Positions 64 through 43,645 of a stretch of 64,000 nucleotides of DNA are shown one piece after another. The notes below the pieces were generated by a model. It saw only the letters and a list, made by a program, of their open reading frames with translations, was not told the DNA's origin and made no database searches. Position 1 is the stretch's first letter; the number at the start of each line of letters is the position of its first letter. The stretch is from the NCBI GenBank assembly GCA_020831625.1, contig JAFIGD010000027.1, positions 1-64,000 on the forward strand. The letters are read 5' to 3'. Source of the DNA: Verrucomicrobiota bacterium. GTDB lineage: Bacteria > Verrucomicrobiota > Kiritimatiellia > SS1-B-03-39 > UBA6053. A program made the translations under genes and the position numbers.

Positions 64-1171
64 CCCCGGGATCCCAATACCGCGTCACCTCACCCCGATA
101 ATTCCGCAGCACCAGATAATCCCCGTCCCGCTCCCGCACATACCCCGGCCCCACCGGCACTTTTCCGCCGCCGCCCGCCGTGTCCACCATATATGTCGGC
201 ACCGCGTACCCCGTGGTGTGACCATGCAACGACCGGATAATCTCCTGACCCGCCGCCACCGACGTCCGGAAATGGGCGCTGCCCTGAATCGGATCGCACT
301 GATGCAGATAATACGGCTTGCACCGCACCCGCAAGAGCCCCAGATTCAAACGCTTCATCACCTCCGGGTCATCGTTTACCCCCTTTAACAACACCGTCTG
401 ACCGCCCAGCGGAATCCCGGCGTCCGCCAGCCGGTTGCAGGCCGTTCGCACCTCCGGGGTCAGTTCATCCGGATGCGTGAAGTGAATACTGAAAAACAGC
501 GGATGCACCTTCTTCAGAATATCGAGCAGTCCGTCGGTGATCCGGTACGGCAGCACCGCCGGCACCTTGGTGCCGATCCGCAGAAACTCCACATGCGGAA
601 TCTCCCGCAGCCGGGTCAAGATCCATTCCAGCCGCTCATCCGCCAGGATCAGCGGATCCCCGCCGCTCAACAGCACATCCCGGATTTCCGTATGTTCACG
701 GATATAGTCCAGCGCCCGTTCCCACATCTTTTTTTCCGGCAGAAACTCTCCGCCGCCCACCATCCGCGCCCGGGTGCAATACCGACAGTAGGTCGCGCAA
801 AAATCCGTGACCAGAAACAGCACCTTGTCCGGATACGTGTGCACCAGACCCGGAAGCGGACTGTGCGCATCCTCCCCCAGCGGATCCTCACACTCATCGC
901 CGCTGCGCTCAAACTCCGCCATCGTCGGAATCTTGGTGCGGCGGATCGCCTGCTCCGGATCCTCCGGATCAATCAGCGACGCATAATACGGGGTAATGCC
1001 CAGCGGCAGCATCCCCGACCGACGCCGGATCGCCTCCCGCTCTGAATCCGTCAGACGGAACAAACGCTCAGCGCCCTCCAGATCCCGAATCCGGTTCCGC
1101 AACTGCCACCGCCAGTCCGTCCACTGAGCGTCAGGGACCTCAGGGTAATATCTGGTGCGAAATGCTTGCAA
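50..1171 (-). CDS. kamA: KamA-family radical SAM lysine 2,3-aminomutase
   Basis: This 373-residue protein should be a PLP- and [4Fe-4S]/SAM-dependent aminomutase that interconverts L-lysine and beta-lysine. The cluster motif CATYCRYC lies at about residues 125-132, and the PLP lysine is K337 in the GGGGK motif. The N-terminus (DWRWQLRNRI, then ITPYYASLID) matches KamA rather than the shorter EpmB type. It is shorter than clostridial KamA (about 416 residues) and lacks that C-terminal extension. The start is TTG; an in-frame TAG lies two codons upstream, so no earlier start exists. The last residues (GESDE) are encoded by the heptamer repeat. Product could be an osmolyte precursor or beta-lysine for EF-P, since efp and epmA are in this window. 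The exact substrate is inferred. Confidence 0.85.
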   Translation of the reverse strand: MQAFRTRYYPEVPDAQWTDWRWQLRNRIRDLEGAERLFRLTDSEREAIRRRSGMLPLGITPYYASLIDPEDPEQAIRRTKIPTMAEFERSGDECEDPLGEDAHSPLPGLVHTYPDKVLFLVTDFCATYCRYCTRARMVGGGEFLPEKKMWERALDYIREHTEIRDVLLSGGDPLILADERLEWILTRLREIPHVEFLRIGTKVPAVLPYRITDGLLDILKKVHPLFFSIHFTHPDELTPEVRTACNRLADAGIPLGGQTVLLKGVNDDPEVMKRLNLGLLRVRCKPYYLHQCDPIQGSAHFRTSVAAGQEIIRSLHGHTTGYAVPTYMVDTAGGGGKVPVGPGYVRERDGDYLVLRNYRGEVTRYWDPGESDE

Positions 1172-1178
1172 AGCCTAA

Positions 1179-1823
1179 TTAGTTCTTTATCTCAACATTT
1201 GCGACATTATCTCGGTGGTTAGTACCCCCTGCAAAAACCCTACTTCGGCCTGCAGATACAACAACTGATCGAGTTCGATGTTGACGAGGATCGGAATAAT
1301 ATTCAATCATGTTATTTAGATCTAAATCCAGTTTTATTGCGTATTGCCCCCCCCACGGATCGAGCATTTCACCTGGCTGATTTCCTAATGTTTGCATTGA
1401 GAGAAATACTTTACCTCTTGGATTAAGATTTCGCCATGTTTCGGGTAAGCCGGTTGTTTCATTAGTAAGAACCTGAATAATACGTCTCGACCTCACGGCC
1501 CAATTAGCACCCAATTGATCAGACCTGTCATTGTTACCAGGAAATGGTTGAGTTTGTTCAATACCAAAATCTCCACTGCCGGAGCCGGGTTGAACACCTT
1601 GTTCTCCAAAAGGTACGGGTAAATATCCATAATCATTATAAAACATCGTGATCGCCGCGGCGATGCTGCGGACATCCGCCGACGCCTGATTGCGCTTGGC
1701 GGTTTCGAGGGCCCGGTTAATCGCCGGAAACAGCAGGCCGGCGAGAATCGCAATAATCGCGATCACCACCAGCATTTCGATGAGCGTGAAACCGGAACGT
1801 TTATGAGAAGGGGTTTTTTTCAT
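1179..1823 (-). CDS. Type II secretion pseudopilin (GspG/GspH-like)
   Basis: The N-terminus has a short basic leader and then GFTLIEMLVVIAIIAILAG. This is the prepilin peptidase site (cleavage after G, E at +5) followed by the hydrophobic helix that packs into a pseudopilus. The mature domain has about 200 residues with a DPWGGQYAIKLD stretch typical of the GspG group. The start chosen is ATG at 1823 with GGAG seven bases upstream; a TTG four codons earlier overlaps that ribosome site and is less likely. It lies 7 bases before the aminomutase and after a second pseudopilin, so the three may be co-transcribed. No GspE or GspF is in the window. Confidence 0.85.
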   Translation of the reverse strand: MKKTPSHKRSGFTLIEMLVVIAIIAILAGLLFPAINRALETAKRNQASADVRSIAAAITMFYNDYGYLPVPFGEQGVQPGSGSGDFGIEQTQPFPGNNDRSDQLGANWAVRSRRIIQVLTNETTGLPETWRNLNPRGKVFLSMQTLGNQPGEMLDPWGGQYAIKLDLDLNNMIEYYSDPRQHRTRSVVVSAGRSRVFAGGTNHRDNVANVEIKN

Positions 1824-1856
1824 GATTTTCTCCAATATCTTAAATAATTCATTATA

Positions 1857-2333
1857 TTAATTTCGAAGTGTAATGTCGTCTCCACGTCCAAAAGACGCTG
1901 GGGTATTTGCGTCGGGTGACGAACCAAAACGACCATCTGGGCCTCGGCTTCCGAGTCGGAAAAACAGGCCGGAACTCTGTGGTGCATAATAGTAATCCCG
2001 TCCCCAGGGATCAATCGGTGTTTGACCGTTTAAATCTGTAAGATCCCATTCGACGCCAACGTAGCGCTCTGATCTATACCAACGCACAAGCTCAGACAAT
2101 CCACCTTGATCGATAGTCGGATAACTGCCCTTATCAGCCCGATAACTCTCCAACTCCAGCGCCATGCTCCCGATTTCTGCCCGGGCCTTGGCTTCGGCGG
2201 CGCCGCGCTGGGCTCCGCCGGAGATTCCGACGACAATCCCCATCAGAATCATAATGATGGCAATCACCACCATCAGTTCCATCAGAGTCATCCCCTGCTT
2301 GTTTTTCTTTGTCATTCGGTTATCAGGTCTCAT
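1857..2333 (-). CDS. Type II secretion major pseudopilin (GspG-like)
   Basis: About 158 residues. The leader MRPDNRMTKKNKQG precedes MTLMELMVVIAIIMILMGI, a class III signal with E at +5 (here Met, not Phe, is the first mature residue). The C-terminal part has DPWGRDYYYAP and then SRGPDGRFGSSPDANTP, resembling the calcium-binding loop of GspG. The ATG at 2333 has GGAG nine bases upstream; the ATG at 2315 is a possible alternative. It precedes the second pseudopilin by 33 bases and is divergent from recD2. Assembly ATPase and inner-membrane platform genes must be elsewhere. Confidence 0.85.
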   Translation of the reverse strand: MRPDNRMTKKNKQGMTLMELMVVIAIIMILMGIVVGISGGAQRGAAEAKARAEIGSMALELESYRADKGSYPTIDQGGLSELVRWYRSERYVGVEWDLTDLNGQTPIDPWGRDYYYAPQSSGLFFRLGSRGPDGRFGSSPDANTPASFGRGDDITLRN

Positions 2334-2428
2334 CAGTCTTGTCTCCAAATCATAGGTACGGAATAACATCTTCTTAAAACCTACACGAAAATGTTGCTTT
2401 CGTATACTCAATAGCGAAATTTATCGCA

Positions 2429-4597
2429 ATGCCAGCAGAAAATTCCCATGAAATGATCAGCGGTCTCGTCGACCGCGTCACCTTCCACAACGAGGACAAC
2501 GGATTCTCGGTGCTCAAGGTGCAGGTCAAGGGCCAAAAAGAGCCGGTCACCCTCGTGGGCCGCGTGGCGCAAATCACCGCCGGGGAACATGTTGTCGCGG
2601 AAGGAGTCTGGAACATCGACCGAACCCACGGCCGCCAGTTCAAAGCCGAAATGATCCGCGCCACCCCGCCGGACAGCCCCGAGGGCATTGAAAAATTTCT
2701 CGGCTCCGGCCTCGTGAAAGGCATCGGCCCCGTTTACGCAAAAAAACTGGTCGGGCATTTCGGCAGGGACGTGCTGAAGATCATCGACGAACAGTCCGCC
2801 CGCCTCCAGGAGGTCGAGGGCATCGGCCCCACCCGCCGCAAGGCCATCAAGGAAAGCTGGCAGGAGGCCAAATCCGTGCGCGAAATCATGACCTTCCTCA
2901 TGAGCCACGGGGTCAGCACCGCCCGCGCCTTCCGCATCCACAAAACCTACGGCGAGGAGGCCATGGTCAAGGTTCAGGCCGATCCCTACTGCCTCGCCCG
3001 CGATATCCGCGGCATCGGCTTCAAAACCGCCGACGAAATCGCCTCCCATTTCGGCTTCGACAAAAACTCCCCCCTCCGCGCCCGCGCCGGGGTCGAACAC
3101 ATGCTCGCCGAAATCTCCGGCCAGGGCCATTGCGCCTGCCCCCGCGATGAACTCACCCGGCAAAGCGCCGAACTGCTCGATATCGACAGGCAAATCGTCG
3201 AGGACGCCATTCTCCACGGACTCGCTGAAAAGCGGCTCATCCTCGAAGTCCAACATGCCGATGACCCGCTGATCTACCTGTCCGCTCTCCACCGCGCCGA
3301 AACCGAACTGGCCGACGACCTCCGCAAACTCCTCTCCGCCCCCTTCCCCTTCGAACCCATCCCGGAGGACAAAGCCCTCGACTGGGTCCAGAAGCAAATC
3401 AAAATCGACCTCGCCCCCGCCCAGCGCGATGCGGTCGCGACCGCCCTCCGCAGCAAGGTCATGGTCATCACCGGCGGACCCGGCGTGGGCAAAACCACCA
3501 TCGTAAACGCCATCATCCGCATCTTCAAGGCCCGCAAGCTCAAGGTAAAACTCGCCGCCCCCACCGGGCGCGCCGCCAAGCGCCTCTCCGAAACCACCGG
3601 CGAACACGCCATGACCCTTCACCGCCTGCTGGTGTTCGATCCCGCCACCGGCGGCTTCAAACACAACCGCTCCAGCCCGCTCAAGGGCGAGGTCTTCATC
3701 ATCGACGAAGCCTCCATGCTCGATCTGCATCTCGCCTATCAGGTCATCCGCGCCCTGCCCGCCAACGCCGTGCTCCTCCTGGTCGGTGATGTCGACCAGC
3801 TCCCCTCCGTCGGCCCCGGCTCCGTCCTCCGCGATGTAATCGAAAGCGGATCCGTGCCCGTCTGCCGACTCACCGAAATCTTCCGCCAGGCCCAAAACAG
3901 CGCCATCGTCATGAACGCCCACCGAGTCAACCGCGGCGAATTCCCCGTAAGCGGCTCCCAGGCCCACCCCGGCGATTTTTACATTGTGCCCGCCGAAACC
4001 CCCGAAGAGGTCTGGAGCAAAATCCGCGGCCTCCTCAAAGGGGCCCTGCAAAACAAATTCGGCATCGATCCCCGCCGCGACGCCCAGCTCCTCACCCCCA
4101 TGCAGCGCGGCGGCCTCGGCGCCCGCGCGCTGAACACCGAGATCCAAACCCTCCTCAATCCCCGGGGCGACTTCGTCGAACGCTTCGGCACCACCTTCCG
4201 CGTCGGCGACCGGGTCATGCAGACCCTCAACAACTACGATAAAGATGTTTTCAACGGCGACATGGGCCGGGTGGTCTCCATCGATCCCATGGAGCGCGAA
4301 CTCTGGGTCGACATGGCCGGTCACAAGGTCTCATACTCCTTCAACGAACTCGACGAACTCGTCCTCAGCTACGCCATCACCATTCACAAATCCCAGGGCT
4401 CCGAATACCCCTGCGTGATTCTGCCGCTGCACACCCAGCATTACATGATGCTGCAGCGCAATCTCCTCTACACCGCCATCACCCGCGGCAAACGCCTGGT
4501 CATCCTCGTCGGCAACAACAAAGCCATCGCCATGGCCGTCAACCGCGCCGACACCCGCCACCGCATCGGCTGCCTCAAAAACCGCCTCAGTCACTGA
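2429..4597 (+). CDS. recD2: RecD2-like SF1B DNA helicase
   Basis: This 722-residue protein is a 5'-3' DNA helicase of the RecD2 (YrrC) type, which works without RecBC. An N-terminal OB-like region and helix-hairpin-helix segments (GIGPVYAKKLV near residue 100, then GIGPTRRKAI and GIGFKTADEI) precede the motor. Walker A GGPGVGKTT lies near residue 350 and Walker B FIIDEASM near 424. Later motifs are GDVDQLPSVGPG and, at the C-terminus, the UvrD-like YAITIHKSQGSEY followed by LLYTAITRGK. Length and domain order are normal. It stands alone, divergent from the pseudopilins; the ATG has no strong ribosome site. Confidence 0.95.
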   Translation: MPAENSHEMISGLVDRVTFHNEDNGFSVLKVQVKGQKEPVTLVGRVAQITAGEHVVAEGVWNIDRTHGRQFKAEMIRATPPDSPEGIEKFLGSGLVKGIGPVYAKKLVGHFGRDVLKIIDEQSARLQEVEGIGPTRRKAIKESWQEAKSVREIMTFLMSHGVSTARAFRIHKTYGEEAMVKVQADPYCLARDIRGIGFKTADEIASHFGFDKNSPLRARAGVEHMLAEISGQGHCACPRDELTRQSAELLDIDRQIVEDAILHGLAEKRLILEVQHADDPLIYLSALHRAETELADDLRKLLSAPFPFEPIPEDKALDWVQKQIKIDLAPAQRDAVATALRSKVMVITGGPGVGKTTIVNAIIRIFKARKLKVKLAAPTGRAAKRLSETTGEHAMTLHRLLVFDPATGGFKHNRSSPLKGEVFIIDEASMLDLHLAYQVIRALPANAVLLLVGDVDQLPSVGPGSVLRDVIESGSVPVCRLTEIFRQAQNSAIVMNAHRVNRGEFPVSGSQAHPGDFYIVPAETPEEVWSKIRGLLKGALQNKFGIDPRRDAQLLTPMQRGGLGARALNTEIQTLLNPRGDFVERFGTTFRVGDRVMQTLNNYDKDVFNGDMGRVVSIDPMERELWVDMAGHKVSYSFNELDELVLSYAITIHKSQGSEYPCVILPLHTQHYMMLQRNLLYTAITRGKRLVILVGNNKAIAMAVNRADTRHRIGCLKNRLSH

Positions 4598-40814: not shown

Positions 40815-41801
40815 TTATTCGACCCCGAGCAGATCCCGGATTTGCCGATCACCCAGCATGCCTTTCACAATCAACTCGGCGCCGGTGTCGATTTCCGCGT
40901 CCACCGCCTCGCCGTTCAAGTGATCCACCAGCGCCTTGACCGCCAGATATCCCATGCGGCGGGGGTTCTGAACCACCAGCGCGTCAAACCGTTCCTGTTC
41001 CAGCGCGGTCACCAGATCGCTGCTGCTGTCAAAGCCGATCACCACCGTATCCGACACATCCACGCCGGTGCGGGCGAGGCGGTCCAGAGCGCGGAGCAAT
41101 CCCATCGAGGTGGATTCGTTGCTCGCGAAAATACCGTGCACCGTCAGCCGGCCGTCCTCCACCAAACCCGCCAGCATGTTTGTGGCCACCGTCAGTGCGC
41201 CCTCCGGAGTGCCGTCGGTAAACTGCTGCGCGACCAGCTCATGCCCGGCCTCGGTCACCTTGTCGGCAAACCCTTTTTCACGGCGCAGAGTGCTTCCGCT
41301 TCCCTCCGCGTACCGCAACATCATCAGACGGGCCGATTCGATCCCCTTCTCCTCCAGCCGGCTTTTCATCCGCAACCCCGCCAAACCGCCGCCCGCCTCA
41401 TTATCGGTCGCAATAAAGCTGAGATAGCCCTCGGCGGCCACATTGGAATCAAAAATCACCAAAGGCGTGCCGCCGCGGATCACGTTCTGAATCGGCCGGG
41501 CCATCCCCTGCTCATCCAGCGGAGCAATCGCCACCGCGTCCGCGCCCTGATGAATCATGCTCTCCAGAATCGCCCGCTGCCGGTCAATCTCGGTCTCGCG
41601 TTGCGGCCCGTCCCACAGAATATCCACCCCGAATTCCCGGCCGGCCTCCCGCGCGCCGTCCTCCACCGATTTCCAGAACGCGTGGGACGTTCCTTTGGGA
41701 ATCACCGCGATCGTCGGCACCCGCTCCACATGTACCGGTTCACGGCGTCCGCAGGCGGACAGGCTCAAAGCGACGAAAAGAAAGGGGAAAATACTGCGCA
41801 T
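40815..41801 (-). CDS. Sugar-binding lipoprotein (RbsB-like)
   Basis: 328 residues. The N-terminus ends in the lipobox LSLSACGR, so it is lipid-anchored rather than free in the periplasm. The type I periplasmic fold includes IAVIPKGTSHAFWKSVEDGAREAG, IDRQRAILESMIHQGADAVAIAP, DSNVAAEGYLSFIATDN, and TVVIGFDSSSDLVTALE. AGGAG precedes the ATG. It heads the importer operon. Confidence 0.93.
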   Translation of the reverse strand: MRSIFPFLFVALSLSACGRREPVHVERVPTIAVIPKGTSHAFWKSVEDGAREAGREFGVDILWDGPQRETEIDRQRAILESMIHQGADAVAIAPLDEQGMARPIQNVIRGGTPLVIFDSNVAAEGYLSFIATDNEAGGGLAGLRMKSRLEEKGIESARLMMLRYAEGSGSTLRREKGFADKVTEAGHELVAQQFTDGTPEGALTVATNMLAGLVEDGRLTVHGIFASNESTSMGLLRALDRLARTGVDVSDTVVIGFDSSSDLVTALEQERFDALVVQNPRRMGYLAVKALVDHLNGEAVDAEIDTGAELIVKGMLGDRQIRDLLGVE

Positions 41802-41908
41802 AATTAGAGTCTCCTAAAGGGTTTGGTCCTTCAAGTAAACACAGCCCGAAAACATTACGCAAGCGAAAAGCTGACGAAGCAGGACGGATATCTTTAAAAT
41901 ACCTGTTA

Positions 41909-41956
41909 TTTTAAGATCTTAAAAGAAGTTTACATTCTGCTTGTTAAACCTATGAG
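41909..41956 (+). promoter_or_regulatory. Palindrome and possible promoter of the seven-helix gene
   Basis: A perfect 16-base palindrome, TTTTAAGATCTTAAAA (41909-41924), precedes TTTACA (41929-41934) and, 16 bases on, TATGAG. GAGGTGA at 41954-41960 is an ideal ribosome site but lies 17 bases before the assigned ATG. Confidence 0.35.
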
Positions 41957-41977: not shown

Positions 41978-42862
41978 ATGATAAAACTGCATTTCGAAAC
42001 GGTGATGATGAACATGCTGGTTGTGTGTACAATCTGTTCGGTGATCATTGCCTCGATATTGCAAAGGCGGCGGCAAAACTATAAAGGACTGGGGCGGATC
42101 AGCAGCATGTTCGGACTCCATGCGCTGGGTATCTTTTTACTGGTCCTCAGAGGCGGGCTTCCTGAATTCCAGTCCAGCTTCGTCGCCCTTGGTTGCATTG
42201 CAGGCGGATTTCTGGTTGGTCTGAACGGGATTGAGGCCTTTGTCGAACGTCCCCGCACGGCGGTCTATCCCTTTTTTATCTATGCCCTGTTTCTGGGACT
42301 CCATGCTGTTGGGACTTTCGTATATCCGGATGTTAATTTACGCAGCCTGAACCTCTCTTGGTTTGCGATCCTCTTTAGTCTGCTGTCCGCCCACCGCCTG
42401 CTGACACCCGATTCCCGCGAGATGTATCAATTCACGCGTTACAGCGGAATCATCTTTATACTCTTCGCCGGCATCCTGGTCGTCCGGTTTTATTTCATCT
42501 TTTCACAGCAAAGCCTGCATTCCGACTACCTGGCCTCGGAGGGTTTCGAACCGATATTTTTTATCATCTTCCAGGCGGTCTATATCTCCATCACCTACTT
42601 CCTGCTGGTGATGGTCAATAAGCGTCTGCTCTGCGACAAAGAGCAAGCCATGTCCGAAATCCGGATTCTCAGCGGGATGCTGCCCATCTGCGCCTCCTGC
42701 AAAAACATCCGTGACGACCAGGGGTATTGGAAACAGATTGAAGACTACCTCCACACCCATTCCGAAGCCCAGTTCAGCCACAGCATCTGCCCCGGGTGCG
42801 CGAAAAAACTGTATCCGGATCTTTACGAGGAAATAAACAGGAAAACCCAAAACCTCAAGTGA
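41978..42862 (+). CDS. Seven-helix membrane protein with Cys-rich sensor-type tail
   Basis: 294 residues. About seven hydrophobic helices span residues 10-225. The soluble tail (about 235-290) reads ILSGMLPICASCKNIRDD, then GYWKQIEDYL, SEAQFSHSICPGCAKKLYPD. This tail is otherwise seen at the C-terminus of PAS- or receiver-containing signalling proteins, and its C-x2-C pairs suggest metal binding. No kinase, cyclase or methyl-accepting domain follows. I infer a sensor of unknown ligand. It is AT-richer than its surroundings. Confidence 0.7.
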   Translation: MIKLHFETVMMNMLVVCTICSVIIASILQRRRQNYKGLGRISSMFGLHALGIFLLVLRGGLPEFQSSFVALGCIAGGFLVGLNGIEAFVERPRTAVYPFFIYALFLGLHAVGTFVYPDVNLRSLNLSWFAILFSLLSAHRLLTPDSREMYQFTRYSGIIFILFAGILVVRFYFIFSQQSLHSDYLASEGFEPIFFIIFQAVYISITYFLLVMVNKRLLCDKEQAMSEIRILSGMLPICASCKNIRDDQGYWKQIEDYLHTHSEAQFSHSICPGCAKKLYPDLYEEINRKTQNLK

Positions 42863-42928: not shown

Positions 42929-43645
42929 TCAATCCGGGTCTTCTTTTCCCAGCCGACTCCTGAACGTAACCGTTTGCCACGCGCTCACACCTGCGGCGCG
43001 GAGCAGCCGCCATCGCCGGATGGACACCGTTCCCGTCCGACGGGGAATAAACGGCACCGGCAGTTCACACACCCGCAAGCCGGCCCGCAAGGCATAGCCG
43101 CTGAGCAAAACGTTCGGGGCGAAGGTGTCCTCGGGAATCAGACGCATCGCCGGAGAGAACGCCTCCGAACGCATCAGGCGGTACGGACAGTTCCCGTCCC
43201 GGACACCCGGGCCGAACAGCAAATGCAAAACACCCTTCAGCCCCCGGGTCATCAACCGCCGGCTCCAGGGACCGCCCCGGTTTTGCCGCGCTCCGATCAC
43301 AAAGTCCGCGCCTTCACGCGCCGACCAAAGCGTCGGAAAAATCTCTGCGGGAATCTCGCCGTCAGAGTCGGTTTGAAACACCCACTCCGCCTCCGCAAAT
43401 GCCCGGGGATATTCCGCCATCAGCGTGGGACCGTGCCCCCGGTTCTCCGTTGAAATCACCTCCAGAGCAGGATGAATGATCTCCTCCAGCCGCGTCCCTG
43501 TGTCGTCCCGACTGCCGTCATTACGGACTCTGAACTGATATTCAACGCCCAGGCCGTCAAGCACCCGCAACCAGTCCTCCACAACGGTCCCAATCACCGC
43601 GCCCTCGTTATAGACCGGCATCACCACGATCAGACAGGGGCGCAT
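42929..43645 (-). CDS. Family 2 glycosyltransferase
   Basis: 238 residues, GT-A fold: VVMPVYNEGAVIGTVVEDWL, VRNDGSRDDTG, and QTDSDGEIPAE (DxD motif). The C-terminal half holds NCPYRLMRSEAF and lacks a membrane segment. It resembles dolichol/undecaprenyl phosphate mannose synthases (DPM1-like). It lies six bases after galE in the same direction, so a cell-surface sugar role is likely. Confidence 0.85.
   Translation of the reverse strand: MRPCLIVVMPVYNEGAVIGTVVEDWLRVLDGLGVEYQFRVRNDGSRDDTGTRLEEIIHPALEVISTENRGHGPTLMAEYPRAFAEAEWVFQTDSDGEIPAEIFPTLWSAREGADFVIGARQNRGGPWSRRLMTRGLKGVLHLLFGPGVRDGNCPYRLMRSEAFSPAMRLIPEDTFAPNVLLSGYALRAGLRVCELPVPFIPRRTGTVSIRRWRLLRAAGVSAWQTVTFRSRLGKEDPD

Follow-up and report, generated by a model that had tools for sequence, protein, structure and literature searches.

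A seven-helix membrane protein ending in a cysteine-rich tail

The window, i.e., the whole stretch of 64,000 nucleotides that was analyzed, contains an intact open reading frame on the forward strand (positions 41978 to 42862), which starts with ATG, has no internal stop codons, and encodes a protein of 294 amino acids (P0001) composed of a seven-helix membrane (7TM) bundle, a helical linker, and a Cys-rich tail. The membrane module, as delimited by AlphaFold2 helices and hydropathy, comprises residues 1 to 218 (positions 41978 to 42631). In the AlphaFold2 model of the full-length protein, helices were predicted at residues 2 to 30, 38 to 56, 63 to 90, 97 to 115, 119 to 142, 150 to 176, and 190 to 231; with a mean pLDDT of only 66, this model can be trusted for the number of helices and not for their packing. 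Hydropathy analysis gave strong segments for five of these helices and weaker segments for the other two, in agreement with the seven helices claimed in the initial annotation. Basic loops follow helices 1, 3, 5, and 7, which by the positive-inside rule suggests an orientation with the N terminus outside and the C terminus inside, in which the tail should be cytoplasmic. The last transmembrane helix runs into the cytoplasmic linker without a predicted break (residues 190 to 231; positions 42545 to 42670). The conserved tail module, as matched by our profile A1, covers residues 222 to 282 (positions 42641 to 42823), with 12 further residues up to the end of the protein, and carries the signature CxxC-K-x-I-R...W...E-x-Y...H-x-x-C-x-x-C. 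The first Cys pair, C238-x-x-C241, lies at positions 42689 to 42700, and H268-x-x-C271-x-x-C274 lies at positions 42779 to 42799. The two CxxC pairs provide four candidate metal ligands, and metal binding by these pairs is plausible.

The gene is flanked on one side by a divergent gene for a periplasmic sugar-binding-like protein (positions 40815 to 41801, reverse strand), followed by genes for an ABC ATPase and a permease, and on the other side by a convergent gene for a glycosyltransferase-like protein (positions 42929 to 43645, reverse strand), followed by a galE-like gene; all of these were named by eye from their sequences. None of the neighbors is a kinase gene. In the congener G002, a syntenic ortholog (66% identical) is flanked, by eye, by the same divergent sugar-binding-protein/ABC set and the same convergent glycosyltransferase and galE-like genes. 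The initial annotation had raised the possibility of a downstream frameshift hiding a kinase or cyclase domain; no hidden output domain was seen by eye in the frames past the stop codon, the gene that follows lies in convergent orientation, and the G002 ortholog stops at about the same point. Between the two orthologs, dN and dS were 0.26 and 2.04 for the whole gene; the 7TM part was 60% identical with a dN of 0.31, and the tail (residues 225 to 286) was 92% identical with a dN of 0.07 and a dS of 1.6. Because dS is saturated, dN/dS ratios are rough. Judged from this comparison, the gene is real and under selection, and the tail is its most constrained part.

No model in Pfam or NCBIfam, HisKA/HisKA_3 and HATPase_c included, matched P0001 at its cutoff. 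The same held in Pfam for the 7TM module by itself and for the vitamin uptake-like sensor family VUPS (PF20973), and in Pfam and NCBIfam for helix-turn-helix, winged-helix, or other DNA-binding families. PHROG gave no acceptable match. The NCBIfam model ABZJ_00895 aligned with part of the membrane region (E = 0.00065) and was rejected at 19.6 bits versus a cutoff of 33. These searches agree with the earlier description of a membrane sensor with a Cys-paired signaling tail and no known output domain.

Distribution of the tail and the modules that precede it

A match to the tail profile was present in 146 of the 387 genomes from the phylum; a search with the full window protein gave matches in 41 of 58 related genomes. 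When species genomes were scanned for the tail, at least 584 confirmed relatives were obtained, and 80 loci were kept; record titles among the matches listed pointed to Desulfobacterota, Acidobacteria, Nitrospirae, Verrucomicrobia, Spirochaetes, Chloroflexi, and others. One Desulfosarcina genome holds 22 tail copies. The genome from which the window derives has three clear copies (the window protein, a VUPS-tail protein on contig C100, and a 7TM-tail protein on contig C59) and one divergent copy (a protein on contig C94). Carriage of the tail by phages or plasmids was considered and rejected, with no copies in phages, one on a plasmid, and four on viral contigs.

After removal of two rows, L141 and L067, each a short additional match in a protein that was already represented, 174 rows yielded 172 distinct tails, 170 of which lie at most 42 residues from the end of the protein. 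The initial annotation had thought it peculiar that the tail sits directly on a membrane bundle and ends the protein; this is indeed its arrangement, but neither a C-terminal location nor attachment to a membrane bundle is unusual for the tail. The two exceptions were L207 and L169. In L207 (G047, contig 8), an apparent frameshift breaks the frame ahead of the second Cys pair, and the frame continues. Among the 172, L169 (positions 1300 to 2640, reverse strand) is the only intact tail with an extension as long as 67 residues; this extension resembles a small winged helix by eye and has no Pfam match.

By sequence, a helix-like stretch precedes the tail, and the modules in front of it are diverse. 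Pfam modules were counted in 84 proteins, i.e., the window protein and 83 proteins of 77 other loci (L053, L094, and L106, in which the tail was missed by the regular expression, were left out of the 80 loci). Among the best 25 of 75 families in this set, modules of the PAS family were found in up to 33 of the 84 proteins and REC in 17, along with GAF, HAMP, Tll0287, and TPR. In a set of 31 tail proteins, REC (7 proteins), VUPS (5 proteins), dCache (3 proteins), MASE1 (1 protein), and SnoaL (1 protein) preceded the tail, and HisKA, HATPase, GGDEF, and EAL were absent from all 22 Pfam families found there. Likewise, motifs of kinases, GGDEF, HD-GYP, and sigma-54 ATPases were absent from all 172 tail frames; 19 of these frames contained a loose E[AVG]LxR string, which was not counted as EAL. 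In Desulfobacterota and others, REC-tail and PAS-tail proteins have the tail of the window protein behind soluble or other receptors. The initial annotation had suggested a membrane sensor acting through metal or redox at the Cys pairs. Standing behind REC, PAS, GAF, Cache, TPR, VUPS, MASE1, and SnoaL modules, the tail behaves as an output and not as a metal or redox sensor, and it is probably not the sensor.

In a rough survey with a home-made gene caller and regular expressions, the neighborhoods of 76 tail genes had no constant partner; neighbors varied, and a gene with a HATPase motif occupied 8 neighbor slots. Separately, a divergent tail, LPxCCVCKKIR...YCPEC, without the conserved His was seen in L229 (Desulfosarcina, G464) and L199; the L229 copy sits by eye behind a receiver-like domain.

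The same membrane sensors end in a kinase or in the tail

A profile of the 7TM module gave 13 matches in 12 of 387 genomes. In five of the 13 (L123, L124, L125, L127, and L129), the module is joined to a histidine kinase, with HATPase_c found by Pfam in all five and HisKA or HisKA_3 in four (three of these under the Pfam cutoff). These kinases have a seven-helix sensor that is homologous by profile to that of the window protein, which carries the Cys tail instead of HATPase_c. The tail follows the module directly in four of the 13 matches (the window protein, the protein on C59 of the same genome, L128, and L126) and follows an intervening PAS domain in three; the remaining match, L119, has neither kinase nor tail and ends in a coil. 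The direct 7TM-tail form was also found outside this sample in G002, G010, and G040.

A second membrane sensor behaves similarly. VUPS, which had no match in the window protein, had matches in 58 of 194 genomes. Among 30 loci that were inspected, a kinase forms the end of 23 (judged from a motif or the ending), the tail that of five, and a coil that of one, and one (L281) has no assigned ending; Pfam confirmed the kinase in both of the two kinase loci (of 23) that were scanned. The reading of the tail as an output is best supported by this exchange of tail and kinase on two membrane sensors, 7TM and VUPS.

Two observations on individual loci were made in these sets. The 7TM-tail gene L126 (positions 1501 to 2352) is interrupted by an in-frame TAG ahead of the final membrane helix and is either a pseudogene or affected by a sequence error. 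The kinase-less coil ends belong to L119 (7TM-PAS; positions 946 to 2142, reverse strand) and L280 (VUPS-PAS; positions 88 to 2736, reverse strand), both on contig 13 of G033, and resemble RELRxLELKxEVNxLxAEAG, a second recurrent ending without a known output.

Conserved residues, relatives, and predicted fold of the tail

Both Cys residues of the first pair (C238 and C241) were present in all 172 distinct tails, this pair having been imposed by the search pattern for the loci from the species-genome scan. Among tails with a residue at the respective position, C271 was conserved in 170 of 171, C274 in 171 of 171, and H268 in 170 of 171. In the 22 paralogs of one Desulfosarcina genome, which were found with the profile only, all four Cys residues were kept in 22 of 22 tails and the His in 21 of 22, at a mean identity of 52.5%. 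Conservation of at least 95% was found elsewhere as well, at L10, G12, P15, I16, K21, R24, G28, W30, E34, Y36, and F45 (profile numbering).

The tail matched no family at cutoff in Pfam-A (2025) or NCBIfam (2026). At E values of up to 10, the 84 tails had weak, zinc-finger-like Pfam matches to DUF3039 (73 of 84; best E = 0.001), zf-C4pol (42 of 84), HMPTM ribbon (24 of 84), and Fin (10 of 84), and NCBIfam behaved likewise. Kinship with these families was rejected and the similarity read as Cys composition; in member 1, the only one for which match coordinates were seen, the DUF3039 match spans 12 residues. Comparison of the tail with the DksA/TraR zinc finger (PF01258), a template of only two sequences, gave an hhalign probability of 4.2, and NCBIfam TIGR02419 matched 1 of the 84 tails (E = 0.045). 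No solved-structure relative of the tail was found in the PDB; the best match of the profile search, glutamate dehydrogenase (E = 0.018), was discarded, as the aligned stretch lacks the Cys pattern. Literature searches for the tail motif returned no paper, which is weak evidence of absence given their poor coverage of subscription journals. The output module appears to be undescribed.

An AlphaFold2 model of the tail built from 84 sequences had a pLDDT of 74 overall and of about 54 to 84 over the tail, with a helix at residues 2 to 32 of the model (pLDDT of about 95 across the first 20 residues). According to DSSP, a strand leads into the first knuckle and is followed by short strands and by a helix that begins at the second Cys pair; as read from this string of modest confidence, the predicted order of elements fits that of treble-clef fingers. 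A fold search with the model gave no confident match, with a best E value of 3 in Foldseek (PHD fingers and others) and a best Z score of 2.2 in VIA-align.

Proposed interpretation of the window protein as a one-component receptor

In a reading that we consider fairly probable, the window protein acts as a membrane one-component receptor and signals through a finger, probably zinc binding, that docks on a shared partner. The seven-helix bundle would sense something in or near the membrane, and the last transmembrane helix, by running into a short cytoplasmic helix, would move or reorient a C-terminal finger of about 50 residues. A single metal ion, probably zinc, would hold this finger together by binding to C238, C241, C271, and C274, and the finger would act as a docking module, its highly conserved surface (K, R, D, W, E, Y, and H) binding a partner common to many such receptors in the cell. 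The surface is kept across paralogs with different sensors, which favors a common target over readers of different DNA sites, and because about 50 residues are few for an enzyme, we favor docking to a common protein partner; by itself, the conserved surface would also fit an enzyme or a nucleic acid binder.

Several other readings were weighed against this one. Loss of a kinase with retention of a meaningless tail would account for the missing catalytic domain but is very improbable: a tail dN of 0.07 versus a dS of 1.6 between congeners contradicts it, and the same architecture occurs in several families, with the tail present in 146 of 387 genomes. Near invariance of the two CxxC pairs and the His would also suit a redox or metal sensor, in which the Cys pairs would detect metal or oxidation, with the membrane bundle either carrying the response or acting as an anchor only. 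However, the same tail stands behind receivers and many unrelated ligand-type sensors and takes the place of the kinase, i.e., the output position, while many non-Cys residues (K21, R24, W30, E34, and Y36 in profile numbering) are equally conserved and positive evidence of redox sensing is absent; we judge such a sensor to be quite unlikely. Zinc fingers are often nucleic acid binders, and the finger might instead make direct contact with DNA or RNA polymerase, as in one-component regulators of the CadC/ToxR type. The winged-helix-like extension of L169 (67 residues by eye, with no Pfam match) points in this direction in 1 of 172 tails, but P0001 has no Pfam DNA-binding family above cutoff, and the 22 paralogs of one genome have the same residues conserved in their tails, which would not be expected of proteins that read different operators. 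These tails might still share RNA polymerase as a target, but a membrane-bound transcription factor as a whole appears unlikely to us.

Less readily dismissed, albeit doubtful, is an auxiliary receptor that pairs with a histidine kinase and whose tail binds the kinase or its receiver. There is a precedent in RocA of group A Streptococcus, a membrane regulator of a two-component system that pairs with CsrS, and the related sensors described above are kinases, with some tail genes adjoining kinase genes. According to the accessible part of the RocA report, however, the membrane domains of RocA suffice for its effect, whereas in the proteins described here the tail is the most conserved part, and that part of the report mentions no Cys tail such as the window protein has (PMC6635533). 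Kinase neighbors are moreover exceptional, and the window gene has none.

On the reading that we prefer, with the finger docking on a shared partner, the receptor appears to be of a known kind in a new form. Its tail may be compared with TackOD1, described in the accessible part of its report as an archaeal Cys-rich output domain of response regulators with 11 conserved Cys residues, five CXXC motifs, and one HXXC motif (PMC5847659); both are Cys-rich outputs behind signaling modules, but the tail has two CxxC motifs. As a more tentative extension, which we regard as possible rather than probable, the tail would be a general and undescribed output domain on a par with kinase and GGDEF domains, and all copies would converge on one shared partner. 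If so, membrane, cytoplasmic, and receiver inputs, with up to 22 copies per genome, would come together at a common hub. Among bacterial receptors and response regulators, many are listed as lacking a known output domain, and for a large set of these the tail appears to be the output that was missing; identification of its partner would link all tail-bearing sensors to a pathway at once.

The intergenic region upstream of the gene

A perfect 16-base palindrome, TTTTAAGATCTTAAAA (positions 41909 to 41924), lies upstream of the gene, as the initial annotation had stated. Three perfect palindromes of at least 16 bases were observed in the window versus 1.6 expected under a first-order model, and the GATC core is absent from the corresponding region of G002, although neighboring bases are kept there, among them GTAAACACAGCC and the AAAAGAAGTTTACA region in the flanks. 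With a count at chance level and the core lost in the congener, the palindrome carries no evidential weight, and its reading as an operator was rejected. A scan for sigma-70-like promoters gave 1 site versus 1.2 expected. Unlike the palindrome, positions 41833 to 41846 (GTAAACACAGCC) and 41921 to 41948 (TAAAAGAAGTTTACA...CTGCTTGTTAAA) are conserved in the congener, and these stretches, located between the sugar ABC operon and the window gene, are a possible regulatory site.
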